Shown here: positions 10,229-38,657 of the stretch, one piece after another
Layout of the letters: each line of letters opens with the position of its first letter
Position numbering within the stretch: the stretch's first letter is position 1
Source of the DNA: a virus
DNA: 39,560 bases
Virus record (IMG/VR): IMGVR_UViG_3300031873_000012
Span: 1-39,560 of that record
Strand: one strand, 5' to 3'
Position numbers and translations under genes: made by a program
The notes under the pieces: model-generated
What the model saw: only the letters and a program-made list of their open reading frames with translations
The model's database searches: none
Told to the model about the DNA's origin: nothing

Positions 10229-10690
10229 TTACGACTGGTGCACTACTCTCTCTCCGTACACATGACCGATATAATCCCACGCCACCGAGAATGGACCAAC
10301 CCCAAATCGAATCGCTCTGTCATCGATGAAGAGGTCGACGCTCGGCTTCCCGCCCGCGCCATCATCGATTGCGTCAAACACTCCTGGTAAATATCTCGAG
10401 ATGAAGTCGAGCATTTGTTTCGCGCGCGCTTGATGAATCGGCAGACTGCTATCGCGCCACCACTCGAGGTTGACTTTCTTTTTGCCGGCCTTGACGAGCG
10501 GGTCGAGCGAAGGGTCGACGAGCAACGCGCTGCTCAACCGACCCGACCACAAAATCAAAAGATGCCCCGCCGCTTTGAGCTCAAGCAACGCCTCTCGCGC
10601 GCCGGGATTGAATTGCAACGGCGACTCGAGATCGTCGTACGCGCGATCCTGATTGACGATGACGCCATCGAAGTCGACCGCAATGATCAT
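10229..10690 (-). CDS. HAD-superfamily phosphatase
   Basis: The 153-residue protein has the HAD motif I DFDGVIV (residues 6-12, nucleophile Asp followed by the acid/base Asp), motif II LWSGR (about 47-51) and a late acidic motif DLFIDDRAI (about 125-133). The small size matches stand-alone HAD phosphatases related to the phosphatase half of polynucleotide kinases and to small phage HAD proteins. The substrate could be a nucleotide or a DNA/RNA 3' phosphate, but cannot be decided here. The ATG overlaps the stop of the preceding gene (TGATG); a GTG three bases earlier is possible. Confidence 0.75.
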   Translation of the reverse strand: MIIAVDFDGVIVNQDRAYDDLESPLQFNPGAREALLELKAAGHLLILWSGRLSSALLVDPSLDPLVKAGKKKVNLEWWRDSSLPIHQARAKQMLDFISRYLPGVFDAIDDGAGGKPSVDLFIDDRAIRFGVGPFSVAWDYIGHVYGERVVHQS

Positions 10691-11088
10691 CACATCTCCT
10701 GAACGACTGGGATCTCAATCGATGATGGAATTCTAAAACTCTGAGGAACGCACGCGTGAACGACCGCGATGAATAGCGCATCTTTTCGTCGGTCGTTCTC
10801 AGTCAACATCGAGTACGGGAGAATCGACGGATGCTCTTTCTTTGCGGCGTTGCTGACGATGCCGTATTTCCAACCGTCCTTTTCTTTTCGATGCAGCCAA
10901 TTCTCATGCGCGCGCTCGGCAAGGGAAACACCGGGATTCTCGAGCAAGAAGATGACGCCTTCGATTGTCGCTTGTCTCAACCAATCGGGAGCGTCCTCCC
11001 ATCTCGGTAAGGTTGTCTCGCCGATCACCTCTCGATAGGCGCGATTCGTCTCGTGACAAATCTTTGCGATATGCTCGACGTTCATCAT
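10690..11088 (-). CDS. RyR-domain protein
   Basis: The 132-residue product fits the phage RyR-domain family named after a repeat in ryanodine receptors. Visible hallmarks are IAKICHETNRAY at the N-terminus (about 7-18), W-DAPDW (about 30-35), a conserved ENWL segment (about 62-65), DGWKYG (about 71-76), KKEHPSILPY (about 83-92) and KDALFIAVVHA near the C-terminus. The function in phages is unknown, but the family is frequent in structural and accessory operons. It starts with an ATG overlapping the portal stop and is coupled to the HAD gene. Confidence 0.8.
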   Translation of the reverse strand: MMNVEHIAKICHETNRAYREVIGETTLPRWEDAPDWLRQATIEGVIFLLENPGVSLAERAHENWLHRKEKDGWKYGIVSNAAKKEHPSILPYSMLTENDRRKDALFIAVVHACVPQSFRIPSSIEIPVVQEM

Positions 11089-16377: not shown

Positions 16378-16563
16378 TCATCGCAGTCGCCCGGTTTGGA
16401 AGCCAAGCAAATATGCGGAGCGAAGCGCTTGTCGGATTGTTTCTATACTTTCCTCTTGCTGGTCTTCTTTAATCGACGGCATCTCCTCCACCACACTCTT
16501 TGCGAGCGAAGTCATCGTCATGTCGTCCGCCATCGATCTCGCTAGAATTTCTTGTTGATTCAT
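16378..16563 (-). CDS. Small paralogous-family protein (61 aa)
   Basis: The ATG at 16563 has a GGAAGGGATGA leader and overlaps the previous stop (ATGA). The product shares EILARSMADD and TMTSLAK with the 92-aa protein at 17284-17562, and ends in ALRSAYLLGFQTGRLR, nearly the same as that protein's C-terminus and related to the one at 22930-23217. It lacks the usual MGITISQST leader. It is probably a truncated or recombined member of this local helical family. The function is unknown. Confidence 0.6.
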   Translation of the reverse strand: MNQQEILARSMADDMTMTSLAKSVVEEMPSIKEDQQEESIETIRQALRSAYLLGFQTGRLR

Positions 16564-16772
16564 TTCATCCCTTCCACTCCGCAAATACTGCAGACAAAGA
16601 TGGTCACCGAAGATCCTTCGACTTGTTTGGAATGTTCTGCGGCACGAAAATTATGTGTGCACCCATCTCGGAGCGTACCTAATTTTCTACGTTGGAGTTG
16701 AAGTCGATTCTGAAGTTTATCAATGTCTCGAGTCAGTTGTCGGCATTTAAATCTTCTGTCTTGAAGATTCAT
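16560..16772 (-). CDS. Small Cys-containing coiled-coil protein (70 aa)
   Basis: A helical, basic N-terminal half (LTRDIDKLQNRLQLQRRKL, about 14-32) is followed by CTHNF and a C-terminal VCSICGVEGMK. These cysteines and the histidine could hold one zinc ion in a C(x)nC...CxxC arrangement. Start and stop overlap neighbours as ATGA, so it is translationally coupled on both sides. The two-helix plus zinc-tail layout resembles small regulatory phage proteins, but no family is recognised. Confidence 0.6.
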   Translation of the reverse strand: MNLQDRRFKCRQLTRDIDKLQNRLQLQRRKLGTLRDGCTHNFRAAEHSKQVEGSSVTIFVCSICGVEGMK

Positions 16773-17071
16773 TTCATCCCTTCCCTTTGTTTGAGAGGTA
16801 GGTTCCAACCGACGTCAACGCCGAACCGATAGGCGACTCGCATCGCTGATAGGATCAATTCTATACTTTCCTCGCGATGATTGAGTTCATCGGTCGATAA
16901 CATCGACACCATCGATTCCACACTCTTTGCGTGTTCGCGCATCGATATTTCATACTCTCTCCGAATCTCGTACCGCTGCTTTATTGCCATTGCGGCGGCT
17001 TCCTTCATGTCGCTTTCATCGACTAAAGCCTTGGCTTCATCGATCGTGCTCTGTGAAATCGTGATTCCCAT
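16769..17071 (-). CDS. Small paralogous-family protein (100 aa)
   Basis: It begins MGITISQSTIDEAKALVDESD, a leader shared almost exactly with the proteins at 17284-17562 and 17080-17271. The helical middle has Glu/Arg repeats, and the C-terminus (ESIELILSAMRVAYRFGVDVG) is a diverged version of the family's ALRSAYLLG ending. A perfect AGGAGGT site stands 4 bases before the ATG. Likely a small helical protein of host takeover type; the function is unknown. Confidence 0.65.
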   Translation of the reverse strand: MGITISQSTIDEAKALVDESDMKEAAAMAIKQRYEIRREYEISMREHAKSVESMVSMLSTDELNHREESIELILSAMRVAYRFGVDVGWNLPLKQREGMK

Positions 17072-17079
17072 TTTACCTC

Positions 17080-17271
17080 CTAGCATCTCTTCCAATTTGA
17101 CCTGAATACAATAATTTCCTCGAGGAGTTGTTTACGTTCACTGTTTGAGTAACAGGAAGGATTGATGATGTATCCTTGAACTCTATCTAACAGACTCAAG
17201 ATCGCTTTACATTCCGCTTCTTTTCTTTCACGTCCTTCATCGGTCGTGCTCTGTGAAATCGTGATTCCCAT
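17080..17271 (-). CDS. Small protein with the shared MGITISQST leader (63 aa)
   Basis: The first 12 residues (MGITISQSTTDE) match the neighbouring paralogues, but the rest (CKAILSLLDRVQGYIINPSCYSNS...) is unrelated, so the leader has been joined to a different body. The body is helical with three cysteines. The stop lies inside the ribosome binding site of the next gene. The function is unknown. Confidence 0.6.
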   Translation of the reverse strand: MGITISQSTTDEGRERKEAECKAILSLLDRVQGYIINPSCYSNSERKQLLEEIIVFRSNWKRC

Positions 17272-17283
17272 TTTTTCATTCCC

Positions 17284-17562
17284 TCATCGCAGTCGCCCGG
17301 CCTGGACGCCGAGCAAATATGCGGATCGAAGTGCTTCTAGGATTGTTTCTATGCTTTCTATGCTTTCTCTTCGAGAAGATTGATGCTTGCGATTAAAGAA
17401 GTCTTCCACATCCTTTGCGAGCGAAGTCATTGTCTCATCGTCCGCCATCGATCTCGCTAGAATTTCTTGCCTCGCTGCCATTGCGGCGGCGTACTCTCTA
17501 TCGCGTTCATCGACCGAGGCCTTGGCTTCATCGATCGTGCTCTGTGAAATAGTGACACTCAT
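17284..17562 (-). CDS. Small paralogous-family protein (92 aa)
   Basis: The full-length member of the local family: leader MSVTISQSTIDEAKASVDERD, middle EILARSMADDETMTSLAKDV, C-terminus ESIETILEALRSAYLLGVQAGRLR. The ATG at 17562 has a GGAG site; a longer frame to 17592 does not. Predicted nearly all-helical and acidic-amphipathic. Related copies at 16378 and 16769 suggest recent tandem duplication. The function is unknown. Confidence 0.65.
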   Translation of the reverse strand: MSVTISQSTIDEAKASVDERDREYAAAMAARQEILARSMADDETMTSLAKDVEDFFNRKHQSSRRESIESIETILEALRSAYLLGVQAGRLR

Positions 17563-17575
17563 TTTTTCTCCGTTT

Positions 17576-18007
17576 CTATTGGTCAAAATCAAACACTATC
17601 CGCAATTCGTCCGTGGCTCTTCCCCCAAGCATAGCCTCCAAACTCGCTAAAATATAAAACCACGAAGGGTCGAGGACATTCAAAAGAGTCGTCTCGGAGT
17701 TTACTCGAAGATCCGTGAAGGTCTGCCCATAGTTCACAGCCAGCAACTCTTTCAAAGTTAAATAAGATGCGTTGTATCCCGCGTGGTTGTGCCAGGGACG
17801 ACGTCTGTTTCGGGGTGACGCTTCGTCTGTTGGATAACCTCGTGGCGTTGGAAGTATTGCCGGAACACCTGCATCGTTTATAACTTCACCACCCGTTAAG
17901 AAGGCGAAGCGAGCATAGTTGCGATCCGATAACGATTCGGGCGCGTTTAAACTAGCCCATACCCCATCGGTTTTGATCTCAACGTAAGGATTAATATCAC
18001 AGCCCAT
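17576..18007 (-). CDS. MGCDI-type conserved phage protein
   Basis: The N-terminus MGCDINPYVEIKTDG is the signature of a protein family widespread in phages and prophages (usually MGCDIHxYVE). The family also shows the internal RNYARFAFLTG and PTPRGYPTDEASP segments seen here (about residues 28-38 and 53-65), then HNHAGYNASYLTLKELL. The biochemical role has not been established to my knowledge. Here the usual His of the CDIH motif is Asn. Length 143 is within the normal range. Confidence 0.75.
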   Translation of the reverse strand: MGCDINPYVEIKTDGVWASLNAPESLSDRNYARFAFLTGGEVINDAGVPAILPTPRGYPTDEASPRNRRRPWHNHAGYNASYLTLKELLAVNYGQTFTDLRVNSETTLLNVLDPSWFYILASLEAMLGGRATDELRIVFDFDQ

Positions 18008-26100: not shown

Positions 26101-26409
26101 TCAACTATTTTTTTCGTCTAGCAATTTCAATCGCTTAGCCTCTTTTTCGAGTAAGAGTCGCTTTGACAATATCTCGCTCGTCCTCGCCATAATCGCGGCA
26201 ATCTCTGCCTCGCAGGTGTCGCACCCGTGGGCTCCTCTATCGCCCGCGAGATGCGCTTTTGCGGTCGCGCAAAGATCGTGGGGTGGATATCGCGGGCATT
26301 TCACTGGTTGTGTACGCTGAAGATTATCACCGCAATTAAAATCGTCGCAGTTATGGCACGCTTGAACGTGCGTTTCGCGACACACCTCGGATGGCGTCTT
26401 CTTATTCAC
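26101..26409 (-). CDS. Cys-rich hypothetical protein (102 aa)
   Basis: Eight cysteines (10, 18, 21, 26, 38, 47, 63, 66) with CxxC pairs CHNC and CDTC, plus histidines, indicate zinc or disulfide-based folding. A long charged helix (about 70-100, LSKRLLLEKEAKRLKLL) follows. The GTG start at 26409 has an AGGAG site 11 bases upstream, and the 13-base motif TCACTGGTTGTGT occurs twice near it. The function is unknown. Confidence 0.6.
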   Translation of the reverse strand: MNKKTPSEVCRETHVQACHNCDDFNCGDNLQRTQPVKCPRYPPHDLCATAKAHLAGDRGAHGCDTCEAEIAAIMARTSEILSKRLLLEKEAKRLKLLDEKNS

Positions 26410-26546: not shown

Positions 26547-27290
26547 TCAGAGTCGCACGAGCTTGAGCCACACTCGCCCGCCGAGCACTATCACCGACCC
26601 GAGCTCGACAGCGATCCTGTGCCCGTACAATCGAGGGTCGATGACGTCGGCTCCGAGTTGCGTTCCCGTGGACCCCTTGAAAATGAAAAGCTTATAAACG
26701 ACTTTGTCGCCCTCGGTCGTTCTTAGCAAGCGCAAGTGCTGACGTGACACTCCCTGTGAAAATACACCGGGAACTTTTCCGAGGTCGAGGTCGGGAAAAA
26801 TATCTCGTTGCGGGTCCTCTCGACCGATGAGCGTCACGTCACTCTCGATCCAGTGCGTTACAATGGTCTCTCGACCGTTCGAGTCGAGCACGAGGAGCGC
26901 ATCGCCATGACGTTCGATCTCATCGTTGGAAATGTCACCGTCACTCTGCTTATTTTTTTCATCGCGTTTCTGCTCGGCAGTGTCGACGACCTGCGAGGAT
27001 GGCGCGCCGGCGTTCTCTTTGTCGTCTACGCTGCTCTCGCATTGCTGTTTCTCGGGCTCTGGCTGCCCCGCTGTTGGTTTTTCCCCCTCGGTGGGGGTGC
27101 TCACTAGATCGGGCGCCTTTGCGTTGACGGTGAGGGCCTCTGAGCCTTCGAGCGCTTCGGCGGGAATGAGCGGGAAGAGATCGGGCGGGGGCGGCAAATT
27201 ACCCGAGAGCAAGTCGCCGCCACAAGAATCGCATTTGATCGCCTCGGAGTTCTCGGTCACGCAAGAGCAAGTCGGGCATCTCTTTGCCAT
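26547..27290 (-). CDS. Zinc-ribbon plus FHA-domain protein
   Basis: FHA domains bind phosphothreonine peptides. The N-terminus has CPTC (5-8) and CDSC (20-23), a short zinc ribbon, followed by a Pro/Glu/Ser-rich disordered linker (about 30-125). The FHA domain (about 130-247) shows GR (156-157), SRQH (182-185) and KGSTGTQLG (about 205-213), the phosphopeptide-binding loops, then a GHRIAVELGSVIVLGG stretch. The ATG has a GAAGGAG site right after the VWA stop, so the two are one transcription unit. Zinc ribbon + FHA beside a VWA protein matches bacterial signalling or stress operons rather than phage replication genes. Confidence 0.8.
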   Translation of the reverse strand: MAKRCPTCSCVTENSEAIKCDSCGGDLLSGNLPPPPDLFPLIPAEALEGSEALTVNAKAPDLVSTPTEGEKPTAGQPEPEKQQCESSVDDKENAGAPSSQVVDTAEQKRDEKNKQSDGDISNDEIERHGDALLVLDSNGRETIVTHWIESDVTLIGREDPQRDIFPDLDLGKVPGVFSQGVSRQHLRLLRTTEGDKVVYKLFIFKGSTGTQLGADVIDPRLYGHRIAVELGSVIVLGGRVWLKLVRL

Positions 27291-27291
27291 T

Positions 27292-28608
27292 TTAGTTCTC
27301 CTTCTTCTCGACCTGCAAACCGGGTTTCAAGAACGCGGGGCGCGCGGCGACAACCGTGCTCTCGACGACCGCGCGATTGACGGCGTCCATCGAGGTCAAT
27401 CCCTCTGCGATAATCTCATCGAGTATCGCCTCGTAACGCTGTCTCATTTTTTCGTCGTGCAACTCTGCGCACCGCTTCACTAACACTCTGAGATATTTTG
27501 TCACCTCGTTGATACTGCCCTCGCCCTTTTTAAATTTCTCGTGCGCGGTCGTGAAATAGGAAGTGAGTTGAGTGATCGTCACTCGACGATAGACCTCGGA
27601 GACCTCTGCGTTTGCTAGCTGTGTCAGTTTTCTATCTGACACGAGCTCGACCGAGAAGAGTTTCTTCTCCGTTTGGTCGACCAAGTTCATCGCGGGAACG
27701 TCATAAAAAACGGTCGCTTCACACACAGTCTGTGTACCAGCGAGAGCGCTCTCCACGTCCACCACAACCAAAAACGAATATTCTTTTTCTGATTCGACAT
27801 TCCCGACAATAAATTTTGCGGTCCGCTTGCTGTCAAGTTTTAGGTTGCCGAGGAACGCCTGCTCGGGCGCGGCCTTGTACGCGAGACTTGCCTCGACGGT
27901 CGAAGAGAATTTGAGCTCAAGGCGCACGTTCGCCACGACGAAATTCTCGACGCGCCCGACGATTCCCATCAGCGTCTCTTTGATTTTCTCGCTCTCGTTT
28001 GCAGCGAAGACCACGCCGTTGGAGCTCGTGACCATTTGCAAAAGATGATCGGCTTTATAGTCGGCTCCCATGCCGACCGCGAAGAGTTGCACCTTTGACT
28101 CGGCGGCGGCGAGCGCAACCGCGCTTGCCGTTTCCGGGAAATCGGCGACGCCATCGGTCAAGAGGATGACGACCGAAACGGGCTTTTGCCCTCGCTCGCA
28201 GGCGCGCGTTGCCTCTGTGATCGCGCCGGTCATATTCGTTGAGCCGCCGGCGAGATCACGAATGGCGTCTATCTGAGCGAGAATCTCGGAGCGGTTCGCA
28301 TCGGTGACCGTTTCGTTGTCGAGCAGAATATGAATGCGCGATTGAAACGCGATGAGCGAAAACTTTTGATTCTCGCTGACCGATGACGCGATCATCTTTG
28401 CCGCATCGATGGCGGCGTCAAGCTTGCCATTCACGAGCATCGATGCACTACAATCGAAAAGCAAACAGAGCGACGCGTCGACTGGGAGCGAGACCTTCTG
28501 GTCGATGTCGACACCCGGCTTTATTTTCACAAGCAGTTTAAGCTCGTGCTCGACACCCGTCATCAACTTCTCGTGGTCACCCACCAACTGTAGATCTAAC
28601 AAGTTCAT
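27292..28608 (-). CDS. VWA-domain protein with intact MIDAS
   Basis: The first half is a von Willebrand factor A domain. MIDAS residues are DCSAS (64-68 in the longer frame, DxSxS), T136 in STNM and D164 in LLTDGVAD, all present, so a metal ion can be bound. The second half is beta-rich (about 230-345) and then helical. This arrangement matches bacterial VWA proteins that scaffold ATPases, chaperones or phospho-signalling. The ATG at 28608 has a GAGGCAGCAA leader; an upstream ATG at 28644 lacks one. It is followed at once by the FHA gene, suggesting a functional pair. Confidence 0.82.
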   Translation of the reverse strand: MNLLDLQLVGDHEKLMTGVEHELKLLVKIKPGVDIDQKVSLPVDASLCLLFDCSASMLVNGKLDAAIDAAKMIASSVSENQKFSLIAFQSRIHILLDNETVTDANRSEILAQIDAIRDLAGGSTNMTGAITEATRACERGQKPVSVVILLTDGVADFPETASAVALAAAESKVQLFAVGMGADYKADHLLQMVTSSNGVVFAANESEKIKETLMGIVGRVENFVVANVRLELKFSSTVEASLAYKAAPEQAFLGNLKLDSKRTAKFIVGNVESEKEYSFLVVVDVESALAGTQTVCEATVFYDVPAMNLVDQTEKKLFSVELVSDRKLTQLANAEVSEVYRRVTITQLTSYFTTAHEKFKKGEGSINEVTKYLRVLVKRCAELHDEKMRQRYEAILDEIIAEGLTSMDAVNRAVVESTVVAARPAFLKPGLQVEKKEN

Positions 28609-28655
28609 TTGCTGCCTCGCTCTTGTCATTGGTCCAAATGACATCTAATGTCGAT

Positions 28656-29939
28656 TTATCTGGCATCCGTCAAAAGATTTGGCTCCTTTCCCGTTGCGTC
28701 CTTGAACCGTTGCAGAGCCACAGCAACGTATCCTGGGTTAATCTCGATAGCACGGCACTTCCTGCCAAGCTGTTCGCAGGCGATCAGCGAGGTGCCACTT
28801 CCGCAAAATGGCTCTGCGACAACGTCGCCAGCCTTCGAACTGTTCGAGAGCGCGCGTAGATACAACTCGACTGGCTTCATGGTCGGATGAAGGTCGCTCT
28901 TATGTGGCTTGTCGATCTCCCACGTCGAGAACTGGCTGGCATCTCCGTAAAACTTGTGTGACCCGTCAACCCATCCGTAAAGGATCGGCTCGTGCTTGTA
29001 GTGATAATCACAGCGCCCCAAGACGTGATTGTTTTTGACCCACACTAGCATGTGGCGCAGTGGAAAACCGCTTTGGCGCAAAGCTAGGAGGAGGAGGAGG
29101 AGGTCGCCTCCCTGCGGCCCGGTCACATAGTAGGAGGCGCCAGGCGAAAGCGATTCGCGGATGGCTGTGAATGCGGCGACCCAGAACGCGCTCATCTCAT
29201 CCGGTGTCTGATGATCACCATCGATAGGTGTCTGAATGCAATTGCCCCGGTGACCTGCATTCAAAAACTTGTTCTTCGACGCATAAGACACACCGTACGG
29301 CGGATCGGTGACGATGATGCTCGCGAGGTCTTTTCCGAATAACCGCTGCACGTCCTCTGCCTTCGTGGTGTCTCCGCACAAAAGCCGGTGCTCACCAAAT
29401 TCCCATAATTGCCCCGTCTCGACCTTCCACTCCTTCCGCAACTCATCTGCTCGATCGATCTGTGGCTCGGCATCACTTAATTCAACATCAGACACATTCA
29501 ACGATAACATTTCAGTTATGTCTGATTGTGTATAACCAACACCACTCAACAAATCTTCGCTTTGAAAACTACTCATCATCGCAACGAGTTCTTTTTCATC
29601 CCAACCGCCGAGCTCAACCAATCGATTGCTTGCAATCAAATACGCTTCGGCCTCTTTGTCGTTCTTACTCCACCAGCCACGAATAACCGGGATGATCCAA
29701 TCGCCATTTTCATTGACGACAACACCATCAGGCGGCGTTCCTCCCGATGATTTCAATTTTAACAGCGCGGCTTTTCGCCCGTGCCCCGCTACAATTCGAT
29801 TCGTTCGCTCATCTAAAACAATCGGCTCAACATAACCAAAACGACCGATGCTGTTTTCAATTTGATCGCTGTGCAATTTTGGATTTTTAAGAGCGTCTTG
29901 CAACGCATCAATGGGCAAGCCTTCTATTCGCAAACTCAT
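28656..29939 (-). CDS. ParB-like domain / N4-N6 DNA methyltransferase fusion
   Basis: Residues 1-145 have ParB/Srx-type features (FGYVEPIVLDERTNRIVAGHGR, about 34-55, in two pieces). The rest is a beta-class methyltransferase with DPPY (212-215) before FCGSGTS (378-384), typical of N4-cytosine/N6-adenine enzymes. This fusion occurs in many phages and probably couples a nuclease-like or DNA-binding ParB fold to methylation. A CTC-repeat codes for six leucines at about residue 280. The ATG at 29939 has a GGGGG site; the longer frame starts are weak. No restriction partner is seen. Confidence 0.85.
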   Translation of the reverse strand: MSLRIEGLPIDALQDALKNPKLHSDQIENSIGRFGYVEPIVLDERTNRIVAGHGRKAALLKLKSSGGTPPDGVVVNENGDWIIPVIRGWWSKNDKEAEAYLIASNRLVELGGWDEKELVAMMSSFQSEDLLSGVGYTQSDITEMLSLNVSDVELSDAEPQIDRADELRKEWKVETGQLWEFGEHRLLCGDTTKAEDVQRLFGKDLASIIVTDPPYGVSYASKNKFLNAGHRGNCIQTPIDGDHQTPDEMSAFWVAAFTAIRESLSPGASYYVTGPQGGDLLLLLLALRQSGFPLRHMLVWVKNNHVLGRCDYHYKHEPILYGWVDGSHKFYGDASQFSTWEIDKPHKSDLHPTMKPVELYLRALSNSSKAGDVVAEPFCGSGTSLIACEQLGRKCRAIEINPGYVAVALQRFKDATGKEPNLLTDAR

Positions 29940-29950
29940 TTTATCCCCCA

Positions 29951-31621
29951 TCAACTCATTAGTTTTCCATCTTCGATTTTTAAATGTAACGCTGGATCAA
30001 GCAAGTCTTTTAAATCTTCGTCATGCGAAATCACCACGACCGCGCGACGATTGGCGAGTTCTCGAACCGCTTCAACCACCCTCGGAACGCCGACCGAATC
30101 GAGACCGTCGAAGCACTCGTCGACGAACAGCGTTCCCGCCATTGTTCCGTGCGCCGCACTCGAGATCTCAGAGAGAGCAAAGAGCAACGCCACATCGATT
30201 CGACGTCGCTCCCCCGCGCTCGCCGCCTTGTAGCCATACCCGCCGCCGGCTCCCTCGATCTCGAGGCTGATTGAGTCGGTCACGCCGCCCGATTTCTTTT
30301 CCTGGTAGGGCGACAAACGCAAGCGCAACCCCTCGCCGGCGATACGCTGAAGCCAGGTATTAGACATTTCCGAGATGGCGTTCAGCGTCGCCCCGAGCAC
30401 ATGCGCGCGGACGCCTTTTGTGCCGAGTACCTTTTCAGTAACGCCAAGCTCTTTGAAATCAACTGTCACAGCCTGTAAAATATCAGCCCATTTTTTCTCG
30501 AACTCGATTGCCGCCTTCTCGTCTATTGCCGCTTTCTCTTTGCGCTCCAATGCGCCCGCTCTCTGTGAGTCGTATCGAACTTTCTCCTCGGTGAGAGATT
30601 TCGCTTTCGAGATTCGTTCTCTGATTTCCTGTAGCGCTTCTTTGATGTCCTTCGACTCTGACTCGAACTCGTGCCGCTGCTCTTCGTTCTCGATGACACT
30701 GGCGGCGGTTGCGGCCTTTGCTTTCTGCAATTCAGTTCGTTTTGATTCGACCTCTGCTTGAGCCTTCGCCCGAGATTGTGGCGGAATCTTTTGATCACAC
30801 GTCGGGCAAACGGTGGTGTTGAGGTGCACGTCAAAACATTTCATGGTGCTCTTGAGCTCGAGCTCGGCGAGCGCCACGTTCTCATCGATCTCTTTCCGCT
30901 CCGCTCTCAATTTTGATATCAACTCGACATTGACTCGCTCTGCCTGTGTGAGTCGAATGAGCCGCGCGTTTAACTCTGTCAGATCTTCAATCTCGAACGT
31001 CTTCTCAAACGACTTCAGCACGTCCTCTGAAAGCGCCAATAACTTTTGAGCAGACTCTTTTCTCGCCGTTCCCATCACGAGACCGTTCTCGGCTTTATGA
31101 ATTGAGACCTCTGTGTTTCTCAAATCCCCTCGACACTCCTCGAGAGCCGCATCAAACTTTTCTATTCCGATGAACGCTTCGAGCAATCGCTTCCGCTCGG
31201 AGTCGGTCGACTGCGTGAAGCACGCGATATCGGTGGCGCTCAAGACATGCGTTCTCTGCCAAACCCAATGAGAGCCTATCTCTGATTCGAGCGCTTCTTG
31301 TGCCTTGGTCGTCGAGGCGAAGTTGATCTCTTTAGCGTTTTCACTGCGTGTGTCATACCAAAGCAAGTTTATCTTTGCGCCAAGCTTCCCACGAATTGCG
31401 GCCACAGTATTGGTGAATACCTTGACTTCGCCGTCCTCGGGGGTCCATGGCGTTGTACCTCTGAGAGTCTTCCCCCAAAGCCCAACCGACACCGCCTCGA
31501 CGAGACTTGACTTGCCCGAGCCATTCGGACCCGTAACGAGAACGATTCCTTTCTCTGGCAGTGTGACTTCACTCTCTCTGTGCTTCATGAAATTCTTGAG
31601 CACTACTTTTTGAATCTGCAT
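29951..31621 (-). CDS. sbcC: SbcC/Rad50/gp46-like ATPase subunit
   Basis: An SMC-like ATPase that, with SbcD, processes DNA ends for recombination-dependent replication. Walker A GPNGSGKS is at 31-38, a zinc hook CPTC at 272-275 flanked by coiled coils, the ABC signature SAGERRR begins at 468, Walker B LFVDE ends at 502, and an H-loop His is near 533. At 556 residues it is short, as T4 gp46 relatives are. The ATG at 31621 has an AAGGA site and overlaps the preceding small gene by about 50 bases. Follows sbcD, the usual order. Confidence 0.92.
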   Translation of the reverse strand: MQIQKVVLKNFMKHRESEVTLPEKGIVLVTGPNGSGKSSLVEAVSVGLWGKTLRGTTPWTPEDGEVKVFTNTVAAIRGKLGAKINLLWYDTRSENAKEINFASTTKAQEALESEIGSHWVWQRTHVLSATDIACFTQSTDSERKRLLEAFIGIEKFDAALEECRGDLRNTEVSIHKAENGLVMGTARKESAQKLLALSEDVLKSFEKTFEIEDLTELNARLIRLTQAERVNVELISKLRAERKEIDENVALAELELKSTMKCFDVHLNTTVCPTCDQKIPPQSRAKAQAEVESKRTELQKAKAATAASVIENEEQRHEFESESKDIKEALQEIRERISKAKSLTEEKVRYDSQRAGALERKEKAAIDEKAAIEFEKKWADILQAVTVDFKELGVTEKVLGTKGVRAHVLGATLNAISEMSNTWLQRIAGEGLRLRLSPYQEKKSGGVTDSISLEIEGAGGGYGYKAASAGERRRIDVALLFALSEISSAAHGTMAGTLFVDECFDGLDSVGVPRVVEAVRELANRRAVVVISHDEDLKDLLDPALHLKIEDGKLMS

Positions 31622-31802
31622 TGTCGATCCTTAACCAGGTGCCACAAGGTTGAAGCCATACAACTTTCTCCGATTGCACTAACCGCTTTTGCGATTCGTC
31701 CATCTCAAAACACGCTTCCACTCGATGTCGCTCTCCCACGATATTCTGAAGGCAAACAGCAACGAGCCCGCACTTATTACATTTCACAAAATGAAAAGGC
31801 AT
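31569..31802 (-). CDS. Small Cys-containing protein between sbcD and sbcC (77 aa)
   Basis: CNKCGLVAVC near the N-terminus (residues 8-17) and a later C and CGTW suggest one zinc site in a small ribbon. Its ATG at 31802 has a GAGGATGAA leader right behind the sbcD stop, and its last 17 codons overlap the start of sbcC in a different frame. A cofactor of the nuclease complex is possible only by position. Confidence 0.6.
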   Translation of the reverse strand: MPFHFVKCNKCGLVAVCLQNIVGERHRVEACFEMDESQKRLVQSEKVVWLQPCGTWLRIDNADSKSSAQEFHEAQRE

Positions 31803-31809
31803 TTCATCC

Positions 31810-32955
31810 TCACAACCTCAAATATTTTTTCGAGAGAGCGAGCACCTTATCGCGATTCACTCCCTCCTCTATCGGCATATTTTTCACAAATGCCGCGAGA
31901 GACTCCGCCAATCCAGTTTCACAGCGAGCCAAAGTCGCAGCGGTGCGAGCCTGAATTTTATTCGTTTGATCATCGGGGAGCACCTCATAGCCAAGAATCG
32001 CATTCTCTTCTTTCTGTTTGCCGAGCCACTCTGATGCTGCCTGCATTCCGACCTCATCTGTGCTTCTCATGCGCGCGAAAACAAAATTCCCTTCCTCACT
32101 CAACCCGCGAAAGCGTTTCAATTCCGAGGCGTCGGGTTTCTCGCATGAAATAAATCTCGGACCTGCTATCTCAATGGTCTCTGTTTTTAGCTGCTTGTTT
32201 TTTATTCCTTCAACGATTGTCACTTTCCCAACCGCATCGTCGAACGCATCTCGCCAATCGGTCGGGCAGAGACAGCCCAATTGCACAATGTGAATTCCAT
32301 TGAACGGTTGCCACTCGACGTGCCGATGCCAATGCCCCGCCATCACCGCGTCAATTTGATACTCTTTACAGAGCGTCAAGAGGCGCTCGATTGATATCGA
32401 ATCGGTTCCCGCCTGCCCCCATGCTGGCGTAGCAGAATCCCAGATCCCTAAATGACAGCCTAAAATTCTAAACGACTTTTCCTTAGCCGCACCGCTAGTG
32501 AATAATCCCGCCAAAGATGCCTCGAAAGAAGCCGCAGATCTGAAGGGGATATGCCACACATCGCAGCCGGCCATCCGAGTACTGCAACACGTGGTGACAA
32601 TGCGAACGTTTTTCACAAACGCCAATGGCCCGAGAGCGTGATTGCCTGTGTCGAGAACAACCTGCTCATGATTGCCGAGTAAGATATTTATTGTAAGGTT
32701 TTTGTATGACTCTAGAATTCGCATGACGTGCGCAAGGACAGGCGGCTCGGGGCGTGCGCCATCGAACAAATCCCCCTCGATAAAAACCTCTGAGCACCGC
32801 GCATCATCCGCGGCCTTCAAGGCACGCTCTAAAACACCGCATGCAACCGCACAGCGGACGTTGATTCCCGAGACTCCGGCGTCCTTAAAAAAGGGAATAT
32901 CGTTTAGAGTTTTGTGATTAGCGATATGCACATCCGAGAAAAAAGCAATTTTCAT
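31810..32955 (-). CDS. sbcD: SbcD/Mre11/gp47-like nuclease subunit
   Basis: The calcineurin-like phosphoesterase fold is marked by DVH (8-10), GDLFD (61-65), GNHE (94-97), GCHLG (166-170) and GHWHRH (207-212), the metal-binding residues of Mre11-type exo/endonucleases. The remaining C-terminal part (about 220-381) is a capping or SbcC-contact domain. The ATG overlaps the recombinase stop as ATGA and has a GGAGG site. Works with sbcC to resect and open DNA ends. Length 381 is normal for SbcD. Confidence 0.92.
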   Translation of the reverse strand: MKIAFFSDVHIANHKTLNDIPFFKDAGVSGINVRCAVACGVLERALKAADDARCSEVFIEGDLFDGARPEPPVLAHVMRILESYKNLTINILLGNHEQVVLDTGNHALGPLAFVKNVRIVTTCCSTRMAGCDVWHIPFRSAASFEASLAGLFTSGAAKEKSFRILGCHLGIWDSATPAWGQAGTDSISIERLLTLCKEYQIDAVMAGHWHRHVEWQPFNGIHIVQLGCLCPTDWRDAFDDAVGKVTIVEGIKNKQLKTETIEIAGPRFISCEKPDASELKRFRGLSEEGNFVFARMRSTDEVGMQAASEWLGKQKEENAILGYEVLPDDQTNKIQARTAATLARCETGLAESLAAFVKNMPIEEGVNRDKVLALSKKYLRL

Positions 32956-33995
32956 TCTGCAACCTCCGCCAAATCCGTCTCTTCATTCTCAGACTCTTCC
33001 GTATCGATTGCCGGTTCACTCTCTGCACGACACCAACCGCAAGCGTCGAGTTTTATTTTTGCTTCTTCGGCAAAAGGCTTCAACGCTTCGCCTCTCAATC
33101 CTCGAACGTCCGCCGGCTTCACGAGCCCCAATAACTTTGCTCTCTCGAGTGTCGACCAAGCGTTATCCCAACCAGTCGCGAAGTTCAGACGTACTACCGC
33201 TTTTCGATAGGGTGACGCCATTCGATTCTTGGTTGCCAAGAAAGTGATAGACTTTGCGATTTTCTCTTCATGTTTATTCTCGACGTGCTTACCTGGGTAA
33301 AGCTGAAGTCGAATCGATGCCGCAAACTTCACGGCTTTGCCGCCCGGTGTCGTCGATGAGTCGCCAAACATAACGCCGATTTTCTGCCGAGTCTGATTAA
33401 CAAATAGTAAACTACACTTCTTCTCGATGGCGAGCTTCGATAAAACTCTGCATGCCTGACTCAATATTTTCGCTCTGCTGTCCCAAATAGCTTTGCCCTG
33501 TAGTCCCTTCAAAACCTCAGCTTTGGTAGCGCATGAGGCAATGCTATCCCAAACCCCGAGCGTGGGCACATTGCCCGGTAGCTGCTCAAGTGTGAACGCC
33601 ATTTTTTCAATCGCGTCTTCCATGTGGTCGGGCTCAAGCAGAATCACACGTTTCAAATCAACGCCGAAAACACTCGCGCGTTCGAGATTCAAAGCGTTCT
33701 CTGTCTCGCATAAAAAAACAATTGCGTTCTGTTCGAGAGCGCCCTTGATGCAACTCCAAGTGAAACTCGTTTTCCCACCTGCCTCTTCGCTATAGAGCTC
33801 GACGATGCGCCCGACAGGCAAGCCTTTGCATCCGAGCACGTATTGATCAATCACATCGATTCCTGTCGAGAGAACCTCGACAACATCGCTCTGACCGCCC
33901 TCGCCCAACACGCCCGCGCTATCACTGCCAAACTGTTTTCTAATTGCGGCGATGATCATTTTCTGTAAGTCTTCCATCTTCTTTTTCTTCGCCAT
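32952..33995 (-). CDS. recA: RecA/UvsX-like recombinase
   Basis: Catalyses strand exchange for recombination-dependent replication. The P-loop is SEEAGGKT (69-76, with Ser at the first Gly), the catalytic Glu is in CETEN (about 97-99), Walker B is VWD (148-150), and the L2-like segment NQTRQKIGVMFGDSSTTPGG (200-219) has the RecA pattern. The ATG at 33995 (leader GGAGAAAAA) gives 347 aa; a longer frame lacks an SD. The C-terminus is acidic (ESENEETDLAEVAE), as in many RecA proteins. Coupled to sbcD. Confidence 0.93.
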   Translation of the reverse strand: MAKKKKMEDLQKMIIAAIRKQFGSDSAGVLGEGGQSDVVEVLSTGIDVIDQYVLGCKGLPVGRIVELYSEEAGGKTSFTWSCIKGALEQNAIVFLCETENALNLERASVFGVDLKRVILLEPDHMEDAIEKMAFTLEQLPGNVPTLGVWDSIASCATKAEVLKGLQGKAIWDSRAKILSQACRVLSKLAIEKKCSLLFVNQTRQKIGVMFGDSSTTPGGKAVKFAASIRLQLYPGKHVENKHEEKIAKSITFLATKNRMASPYRKAVVRLNFATGWDNAWSTLERAKLLGLVKPADVRGLRGEALKPFAEEAKIKLDACGWCRAESEPAIDTEESENEETDLAEVAE

Positions 33996-34272
33996 TTTTT
34001 CTCCGTTGCGAGATAAACCTCTTTTCACATTCTGTATGGGAAAAGAGGAGAGCGCCCAGGCCATCCGAGCTTAAGCGCTCTTTTTCTAAAATTGGCTGGG
34101 GGTTGGAATTGCACCAACACGGAGTCATCGGCCCAACTTGATGACTTGCCCCGTCTATGGCTCGGGCTCTGGTGCGCGAGCATCTCCCAGCGGTTCGGCA
34201 CGACTAGCACTATGAGTATTCGATAGAACGATATGGGGGAAAGCGCTATCGAGCTCAGAGTTCTATTCGCGC
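33996..34272 (-). other. Structured non-coding gap between ssb and recA
   Basis: No gene with a good start fits here. Stems are visible at 34018-34025/34041-34048 (CCTCTTTT with AAAAGAGG), 34049-34055/34075-34081 (AGAGCGC with GCGCTCT, followed by a T-run on the plus strand) and CGATAG/CTATCG near 34220-34250, together with the tRNA-like fold listed separately. This is probably a 5' leader for recA or a processed RNA. Compare with the hairpin-rich gap at 107-615. Confidence 0.5.
34095..34191 (-). ncRNA. tRNA-like fold, 97 nt, degenerate
   Basis: On the minus strand GCTGGGA (34185-34191) pairs at 6 of 7 positions with CCCCAGC (34095-34101). Next come a D-arm-like GCTC/GAGC with an 8-base loop, a weak anticodon-like stem with loop CCATAGA, a strong 7-bp variable-arm stem (AGTCATC/GATGACT) and a T-arm-like GTTGG-TGCAATT-CCAAC. 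Anticodon would read ATA at the usual place, and U33 is missing, so function as a tRNA is doubtful. A type II-like pseudo-tRNA or tRNA mimic is my best reading. Confidence 0.35.
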
Positions 34273-36011: not shown

Positions 36012-38657
36012 TTAATTTATTTTTTTCAGGCTTCCCCACGACTCGCCGACCTCAACATCGACCACGAGCGGAACATTGAACGGGGTCTCCCAGCCTTGCA
36101 TCACTTGCTTCACCTTTTCGATTGTCGACGGCACGAGGTCCTCTCGCACGTCGAGCATGATACTGTCGTGCACCGACAGAATCACCCTGACATCGGGCGC
36201 CAGTTTTTCTTCATCGACCCAATTGATCAATCTGACAAGCGACTGAACACAAAACTCGCTCGCGGTTCCCTGCACGGGCGTGTTCCACGAGGAACGCTCG
36301 GCGCTCCCGCGCGCCCAATCATCCGCTTGGTCTCCTATCTTCGAGAGAGGTCGCCAGCGAGCTCTTCGCCCCTCCCACATCGTGTACGCGCCGCCGTATT
36401 TCTGCGCGTTCAAGAGACAGTTTTTGATCCACGCCGCCAGAACCTTGAAGCGTCCGAGAACCGCCGCTCGAATTCTCGCAGCCATTTTTGCGTCGCACCC
36501 AATTTTCTCAGCGAGTTGTTTGTCGTGTTGCCCATAGAGCAATCCGAAGTTGACGGCCTTGCACGCTTTGCGATGCGACTTCTCGACCTGCTCGGGTTTG
36601 ATTCCCCATACAAGCTCGGCGAGCATTTGCGCTGTGCGAAGATGATAGTCAACGCCCTCGTCGAAGATCGCTCGCATCTCGGGGTCCCCTGACAGCATCG
36701 CTGCCACTCTCAATTCGAGTTGCGAATAGTCGGCCGAGATCATCAAATTACCGGGCGACGCCACAAAGACGTTGCGCGACATACTCGCCAAACTCGGGTC
36801 GTAGGTTTCTTTTTCGCCGCTCGGGATGTTCTGAAGATTCGGGTCCGCCGAGCTCGTGCGACCCGTTCTTGCGCCGTCTGTGTGAAGCGTCGTGTGAATC
36901 CTATTATCACCTCGAACGTGCGCAAGCATTCCTTCGCAGCCAGTTTTACCAGCAGCATAGGTGTTTCTCTGTTTATCCCAGTGACGCCACTCGAGTAGAC
37001 TCTCGATGATTTCTTTCTTACCGTCCGCCGCGACCTTGAGCAATTCTTCAAGCGCCTCGTGATCTGTGCTAGCCGCACCGCCTTTAGTTGTGTACGGCAC
37101 TTTCAATTTCATCTTTTTATAGAGCAACTCTGAAACGTGATGCGACGAGGCGGGATTGAAATCGGGCCCAGTATGAGCAATCAATTTTCTGTGCGCGTCG
37201 GTCAGTTTGAGAATCAGCATCTCTTGGTACGAGAGGATGGCGTCTTTACTGACAGCGATTCCCCATTTTTCTAACTCTATGATTGGCTCAATTGTCGGAC
37301 GAATAAGCCGATTCCAAACATAAAAATTCTCCTCGGAGTCGGCGATATCTGTCTCGAACAAGTCGACTAGACGGTCCGTTGCGATTGCATCCGCCGCATT
37401 GTATCGCAGCAACACAGTCTGTGGAATCAATGCGAACGCAAAACTCTTCGGGTCATCCGTTGACCTGATATCCTCCGCGACTGCCTTGTCGAGAATCAAC
37501 ATCGCTTTGTCGTAGCGCGGGGTCGCTTGTTTTGTGAGCTTGCATGTCTCGCCGTGAAAAGTCGCGTGCGCCACCTTGAGGCAAACATTGATATTCTTTT
37601 CAGCGTCGTCCAAATACTGTTCGGCTTCTTCTTTGTGACCGCCCATTCCGACGAGCTCGGCCATCGTTTTCAATCGTGTCTGTGCCTCGGGGTCCAGAAT
37701 TTTTCGCATGAGACGAGCATCATAAACAACACCTCGCAGACGAATTCCCAAACCGCACCACAACGCGTGCGCATCGCTCTTGATGTTTTGACCCACCTTG
37801 CGCGCGCAATCGTCTTCCAACAATTTCGCCAACTCTGCACATATCTCGGCATTTTTTAGAGACTCTCGATCCCAAACGTACGCGTAACTTTTTCCTCGAG
37901 GAACGCACGCGATGCTTAGCAATTCCAATTTTCGATACGGCACGCCCGACCATTCAGCATCTATCGACAGCCAGACAGCCGACCTCAAATCGTCCGCCGC
38001 TTCTTTCGATTCACTGACAGTTTGTATGACTCGCGCTTCCGCATCGTAGGGCGGCAACTCGAATCGATGAGTCAATGCCCATTGCAAATCACTCTCAAAA
38101 ACCTGAGAGATGAACCGATTTGAAAAAATCAACGAGGGGTCGAAGAACATCACGACGGGCGTTCTCGTCGACAAAAAAGCGAAGCCTCGCCGAACGCTCA
38201 TCGTATCGACCGACCGACCGAGCAGAGAATAAATTGCATTCGCGCCCATCGCCAAAATCAAAGTCGGTTTAATCTCAGCGATGCTTGTCTGCATATATGC
38301 TCTGCACGCGTCAACATTCGTCGGAGAGATATCATTCAAAACCGAGGCACACCGCACAGCGAAATCAAAATAAATAGGGCCTTTCCAAATCTTACTTATC
38401 GTCGAGTAAAGAAAGGATATGGTTTTGTTGTTCGCGTTCACAGTCTGACTAAGCACTACCAGTAAAGCCTTCCCCGCTTTCTTTTCGTCGTAAGAAAAAG
38501 GTCGCTTAATCGGTGCGGTGTTTCTCTTACCGAGCGCGCATCTTTCGCAGCCTTCCTCTGTTGGAAAGGCAAACGTTGCAAATGGTAAGGCTACTACCTC
38601 GACGGCAGACTTGGGAATTTCTCCCGGCGAGGTATCGTACACCCTCAAGATTTTCAT
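36012..38657 (-). CDS. polA: Family A DNA polymerase with UDG-like N-terminus
   Basis: The replicative polymerase. Residues 30-195 look like a family 4 uracil-DNA glycosylase: cysteines 37, 40, 103 and 118 have near-canonical 4Fe-4S spacing, but the catalytic GE-PG motif and the HPS motif (here DPS, 173-175) are altered. The 3'-5' exonuclease has DAE (233-235), NIKSD (291-295) and YNAAD (419-423). The polymerase has TGRTSS (598-603), motif A DYSQLELR (643-650), motif B R696...K700...F704...YG (708-709) and motif C VHDS (829-832; Ser replaces the usual Glu). Length 881. ATGA overlap with the upstream gene. Confidence 0.92.
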   Translation of the reverse strand: MKILRVYDTSPGEIPKSAVEVVALPFATFAFPTEEGCERCALGKRNTAPIKRPFSYDEKKAGKALLVVLSQTVNANNKTISFLYSTISKIWKGPIYFDFAVRCASVLNDISPTNVDACRAYMQTSIAEIKPTLILAMGANAIYSLLGRSVDTMSVRRGFAFLSTRTPVVMFFDPSLIFSNRFISQVFESDLQWALTHRFELPPYDAEARVIQTVSESKEAADDLRSAVWLSIDAEWSGVPYRKLELLSIACVPRGKSYAYVWDRESLKNAEICAELAKLLEDDCARKVGQNIKSDAHALWCGLGIRLRGVVYDARLMRKILDPEAQTRLKTMAELVGMGGHKEEAEQYLDDAEKNINVCLKVAHATFHGETCKLTKQATPRYDKAMLILDKAVAEDIRSTDDPKSFAFALIPQTVLLRYNAADAIATDRLVDLFETDIADSEENFYVWNRLIRPTIEPIIELEKWGIAVSKDAILSYQEMLILKLTDAHRKLIAHTGPDFNPASSHHVSELLYKKMKLKVPYTTKGGAASTDHEALEELLKVAADGKKEIIESLLEWRHWDKQRNTYAAGKTGCEGMLAHVRGDNRIHTTLHTDGARTGRTSSADPNLQNIPSGEKETYDPSLASMSRNVFVASPGNLMISADYSQLELRVAAMLSGDPEMRAIFDEGVDYHLRTAQMLAELVWGIKPEQVEKSHRKACKAVNFGLLYGQHDKQLAEKIGCDAKMAARIRAAVLGRFKVLAAWIKNCLLNAQKYGGAYTMWEGRRARWRPLSKIGDQADDWARGSAERSSWNTPVQGTASEFCVQSLVRLINWVDEEKLAPDVRVILSVHDSIMLDVREDLVPSTIEKVKQVMQGWETPFNVPLVVDVEVGESWGSLKKIN

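Follow-up and report, generated by a model that had tools for sequence, protein, structure and literature searches.

A VWA and zinc ribbon-FHA gene pair in a probable tailed-phage fragment is related to a bacterial kinase cassette and resembles archaeal ArnB-ArnA

Introduction

If a phage encodes a phosphothreonine reader together with a partner protein, which kinase would write the mark, and what would the phage gain from reading it? The question is raised by IMG/VR record IMGVR_UViG_3300031873_000012, a 39,560-bp contig from an uncultured tailed phage that we analysed over its full length (the window). In it, a gene for a VWA protein, P0001, directly precedes a gene for a zinc ribbon-FHA protein, P0002. 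The initial annotation of this DNA read the two as a signalling pair, pointed out that a kinase is implied, and linked the pair to Ter triads and conflict systems. It did not name the archaeal ArnB/ArnA pair, which is a closer parallel than the Ter triads.

ArnB and ArnA (Saci_1211/Saci_1210) act in Sulfolobus motility repression and, like the phage pair, consist of a three-domain VWA protein adjoining a zinc finger-linker-FHA protein. In the unphosphorylated ArnA-ArnB pair the zinc finger of ArnA makes a loose contact; the C-terminal bundle of ArnB is phosphorylated and the ArnA FHA domain, part of a zinc finger-linker-FHA chain, then binds it (PMC6509490, PMC12852372). The phosphate site of ArnA is formed by R132, S146 and R147 (PMC6509490).

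Results

Both genes are complete ORFs on the minus strand: the VWA gene (27292..28644) encodes 450 amino acids, and the zinc ribbon-FHA gene (26547..27290) encodes 247 and begins 1 bp past the P0001 stop, with a good Shine-Dalgarno sequence. For the VWA gene, the start codon could be M1, M6 or M13, and the end at 28608 given earlier corresponds to the last of these. Compared with the sister contig L002, the VWA gene has a dN/dS of 0.12 and the FHA gene one of 0.08, values that mark purifying selection on both and show that the pair does not consist of chance ORFs. In a second sister contig (L007:15845-16666), an in-frame deletion has removed the VWA domain together with the first CxxC: some 33 codons of the VWA gene run directly into the FHA gene at its codon 14, and the resulting FHA protein keeps only half of its zinc ribbon. 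This deletion is either a natural loss or a misassembly; if it is real, the VWA protein is dispensable in some phages, whereas a misassembly would have no bearing on the matter.

The window comes from a tailed phage, as confirmed by genes for a terminase large subunit, portal, capsid, a Mu-F-like head protein, a peptide deformylase, family-A polymerase, a gp32-like SSB, RecA/UvsX and SbcCD. Because no end repeats were found in the contig and a tail module is apparently missing from the part seen, the contig is probably a linear fragment of the genome. The best terminase relative in Myxococcota has 32% identity, a weak basis for assigning a host. Elsewhere in the window, the family-A DNA polymerase (36012-38657) has a uracil-DNA-glycosylase-like N-terminal region (E 5e-9) ahead of its 3′-5′ exonuclease, the ORF at 10690-11088 encodes a small protein containing a RyR domain (E 8e-12), and a row of small ORFs at 16378-17592 with near-identical starts (MGITISQSTIDEAKA...) resembles a locally duplicated gene family.

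The minus-strand gene order is RecA, SbcD, SbcC, a ParB-like/methyltransferase gene, the VWA gene and the zinc ribbon-FHA gene. Specifically, the SbcC, SbcD and RecA/UvsX-like genes occupy 29951..34064 in the same gene run, and the ParB-like/DNA methyltransferase gene (28656..29954, minus strand) lies directly upstream of the VWA gene. Its first ~150 codons are common to the sister contigs (L002:6279-7990; L007:14165-15876), in which the remainder is swapped for a shorter ParB ORF and a 374-aa ATPase/GNAT-like gene, the latter identified by eye and not from a profile. The locus right upstream of the VWA gene is swappable and probably serves DNA modification.

P0001 comprises a split β-sandwich, a VWA domain with an intact MIDAS, a C-terminal helix bundle and a tail with a conserved S429-T430. 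The VWA domain matches Pfam VWA (E=2e-18) and the MIDAS residues D64, S66, S68, T136 and D164 are invariant across 19 aligned rows; the metal site is therefore complete, as had been read from the sequence before. In an AlphaFold2 model built from a 21-sequence alignment (pLDDT 80.6, pTM 0.77), strands flank the VWA domain on both sides and the helix bundle comes afterwards. Modelled P0001 has the three-domain architecture of ArnB: Foldseek against the PDB returned full-length matches to a Catenulispora vWA protein (4fx5, E 4e-25), ArnB (8s05, 2e-23) and ArnE (5a8j, 6e-21), and in a phmmer search of PDB sequences ArnB and ArnE were the sole matches with E < 0.001. The best fold match, 4fx5 from Catenulispora acidiphila, also has three domains; we know of no FHA partner or function for it. 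Sequence similarity between P0001 and ArnB is low (44 bits, mostly in the VWA part), and the Pfam family ArnB_C (IPR040929) has no match in P0001; we would therefore say that P0001 works like ArnB, not that it is ArnB. In a viral structure library, giant viruses supplied most of the full-length matches to P0001, and the matches from phages were for the most part confined to the ~200-residue VWA core.

The tail holds a predicted phospho-acceptor for FHA docking, T430 (codon at 27355..27357, minus strand), which would be the counterpart of the C-terminal phospho-threonines of ArnB. Position 430 is Thr in 15 of the 19 aligned rows and Ser in 3. The Ser-Thr pair recurs in the VWA tail of most relatives, and the region around it is poorly conserved between subgroups: the phage reads VVESTVV, whereas the cellular context, conserved in Myxococcota, is of the RHKSTQKR type, and the two may therefore not answer to one kinase motif.

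P0002 begins with a zinc ribbon (residues 5-23; cysteines C5/C8/C20/C23), continues with an acidic linker (about 30-130) and ends with the FHA domain (about 130-247). Pfam FHA stays below threshold (17.9 bits against a cut-off of 20.7); a profile built from nine cellular relatives, with no phage sequences, recovers the FHA part at 69 bits (E=3e-21), with P0002 as its sole match among the 220 ORFs of the window. Five FHA columns (G156, R157, S182, R183 and H185) are invariant in 10 sequences, and R157, S182, R183 and H185 form a candidate phosphate pocket. Its Arg, Ser and Arg are the residue types of the ArnA phosphate site, and ArnA and P0002 share an Arg at the second pocket position. Of the ArnA-type series Arg, Ser, Arg, Thr, P0002 thus has R157, S182 and R183; the Thr/Asn loop reads STGT, a tentative equivalence given the poor structure model (pLDDT 41).

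Most cellular relatives of the pair lie in a cassette with a kinase. Scanning genomes with P0001 as the sole query gave no match; a broad VWA alignment as query led to a Polyangiaceae operon (L033, Polyangiaceae bacterium Prado144) encoding a PP2C, a VWA protein and a zinc ribbon-FHA protein. There the VWA gene precedes the FHA gene at a 2-bp gap, in the phage order, but a PP2C gene stands upstream and the sequences are distant (about 20% identity, very long branch). Searching 237 myxococcotal genomes with a profile of P0001 and the L033 VWA protein then added 11 full-length relatives, spread over 10 genomes. At nine of these 11 loci, genes for a zinc ribbon-FHA protein and a Ser/Thr kinase follow the VWA gene, in that order and on the same strand. 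Among 246 planctomycetal genomes, five carry a VWA match at E <= 1e-30, all five with FHA and kinase genes in the same order. Because E-value cut-offs with the broad VWA profile (A6) are not specific, relatives were judged by full-length coverage, by the tail and by FHA adjacency. The resulting cassette loci (L112-L120 and L146-L150) vary in detail: the FHA domain was assigned by motif and not by profile in L147-L150, the CxxC pairs are absent from the L116 FHA ORF as called, and one additional gene separates VWA and FHA in L119 and L120. At L121 and L122, no FHA gene was found nearby. A Chloroflexi protein (L018:303-1976) joins a VWA domain and a C-terminal FHA domain (a motif match) in one chain, an observation that independently supports joint working of the two.

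A VWA profile made from myxococcotal sequences alone recovers P0001 at 271 bits over residues 29-432, through the helix bundle and the tail. The earlier reading of the two genes as a VWA and zinc ribbon-FHA signalling pair holds. The nearest cellular locus, L112, has a VWA protein 35% identical over 416 residues, an FHA protein 40% identical over 99 residues, and gene gaps of 0 and 1 bp; in a tree to which a long-branch warning applies, the phage VWA protein groups with L112 at 96/95 support. The phage and the cellular cassettes share both proteins (the VWA at full length), the gene order, tight spacing, the FHA pocket and, in most, the tail Ser-Thr. Their surroundings differ: the phage pair lies within a run of recombination and modification genes, whereas cellular cassettes stand beside ftsK (L114, and L119 by C-terminal sequence), ruvB (L117, L118) or NADH dehydrogenase (nuo) genes (L119, L120). 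That several adjoin housekeeping genes suggests that the cellular relatives serve as a housekeeping signalling module, and disfavours a conflict or Ter reading. The cassette of Myxococcota and Planctomycetota is apparently undescribed; no name or paper for it was found in the literature searched, an absence that is no proof.

The phage also differs from the cassettes in having no kinase in the part seen. Where the cellular kinase gene would stand next, the phage has a 102-aa Cys-rich ORF with a GTG start (26101..26409, minus strand) and no family match, and we therefore class the pair as a kinase-less relative and not as a full cassette. The earlier remark that a kinase is implied and missing from the window holds, with the addition that in cells it is the third gene; a search extended to all three phage contigs found neither a Pkinase nor a PP2C domain. 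The Arn kinases ArnC and ArnD are encoded by separate genes, a difference from the phage contig, which has none. A kinase elsewhere in the phage genome is conceivable, as the contig probably covers that genome only in part.

Searches of phage, plasmid and viral-contig collections with the pair turned up only near-identical contigs or else VWA proteins lacking FHA. At scan sensitivity, this one phage population alone carries the pair in IMG/VR; the viral-contig scans rely on short peptide patterns, by which distant relatives would be missed. The literature searched yielded no paper on such a pair in a phage, which again is no proof of absence. PADLOC gave no match for the pair. Nor did profile searches assign either protein to a virion or replication family; neither falls in a PHROG of known function, and that possibility was dropped.

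Discussion

On balance, and by a slim preference, we read the pair as a kinase-less, phage-borne phospho-switch of the ArnAB type, related to the bacterial VWA/zinc ribbon-FHA/Ser-Thr kinase cassette and using a host kinase. This reading is supported by architecture, homology, gene order, conservation of the pocket and the tail, selection, and the lack of kinase and PP2C genes in the contigs; from these we infer phosphorylation, docking, host-kinase use and an output. At rest, P0002 would be in loose contact, through its zinc ribbon, with the β-sandwich and helix bundle of P0001. A Ser/Thr kinase of the host, whichever bacterium that is, would then phosphorylate the C-terminal tail of P0001, with T430 as the best candidate and its neighbours perhaps included, and would so take the part that the third gene plays in cells. 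The FHA pocket (R157, S182, R183) would dock at the phosphorylated tail to form a tight complex; we propose these two steps because the tail Ser-Thr is conserved and the FHA Arg, Ser and Arg are of the ArnA type. Once docked, the pair would offer its freed or exposed MIDAS and zinc-ribbon surfaces to a downstream partner, which probably has a link to DNA metabolism or early gene expression of the phage. Such an output is plausible because the pair follows recombination and DNA-modification genes and because ArnA has a DNA-damage role in S. islandicus, where the ArnA-ArnB pair represses DNA-damage-response genes (PMC10470591). It would be unlike that of ArnAB in its archaeal host, which is archaellum control. 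Against the phospho-switch stand the fragmentary contig, in whose missing part a kinase may lie, the L007 deletion of the VWA gene (natural loss or misassembly), the VVESTVV tail context set against the cellular RHKSTQKR, and the poor FHA model.

A less probable reading is that the pair is a decoy or dominant negative, which imitates the host VWA and FHA proteins and soaks up the cassette kinase or enters the complex, jamming the host circuit during infection. Membership in the same family as the cellular cassettes, the lack of a phage kinase and the 35% identity to L112 fit this idea. However, a decoy would need neither both partners nor an intact MIDAS and FHA pocket, yet all of these are conserved; the housekeeping neighbours of several cellular cassettes and the PADLOC result give no sign of phage defence; and the idea presupposes that the host has the cassette.

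We consider it rather unlikely that the pair is a phosphorylation-independent scaffold, in which SbcCD, the recombinase or modification proteins are held together at DNA through MIDAS adhesion and the zinc ribbon, with the FHA domain as a mere protein contact. Such a role would suit a pair that directly follows recombination and DNA-modification genes, and it would fit the weak DNA binding seen for S. islandicus ArnA and ArnB together (PMC10470591), but later structural work gave no hint that ArnA or ArnB binds DNA directly (PMC12852372), and a scaffold does not account for a conserved FHA phosphate pocket and tail Thr. That the genes are passengers with no present function, as the VWA deletion in L007 could suggest, is very improbable given their dN/dS values and intact key residues.

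Least probable of all is a phage-carried defence or stress triad of the TerY-P kind, to which the initial annotation had linked the pair: VWA, zinc ribbon and phospho-signalling are common parts, but that triad combines a TerY VWA protein with a PP2C and a kinase-zinc ribbon protein in a defence or tellurite context and has no FHA gene (PMC11090510), whereas the phage has an FHA gene and a VWA protein of the three-domain ArnB type; with the PADLOC, kinase and PP2C results and the ftsK, ruvB and NADH dehydrogenase neighbours of the cellular cassettes, this link was rejected as a way to file the pair.

Returning to the phospho-switch, the case links the archaeal ArnAB switch, a bacterial VWA-FHA-kinase cassette and a phage that has the readers without the writer; a phage-encoded FHA phosphothreonine reader with a VWA partner was not found elsewhere in the phage, viral-contig and literature collections searched. 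We hold it an evenly balanced proposition that a tailed phage acquired the reader half of an ArnAB-like cassette of bacteria and that omission of the kinase places the pair under host-kinase control, in which case a viral phosphothreonine reader would couple infection to the state of the host or override a host circuit. The pair thereby offers a small, concrete and testable system for how a phage may read or override host Ser/Thr phosphorylation.
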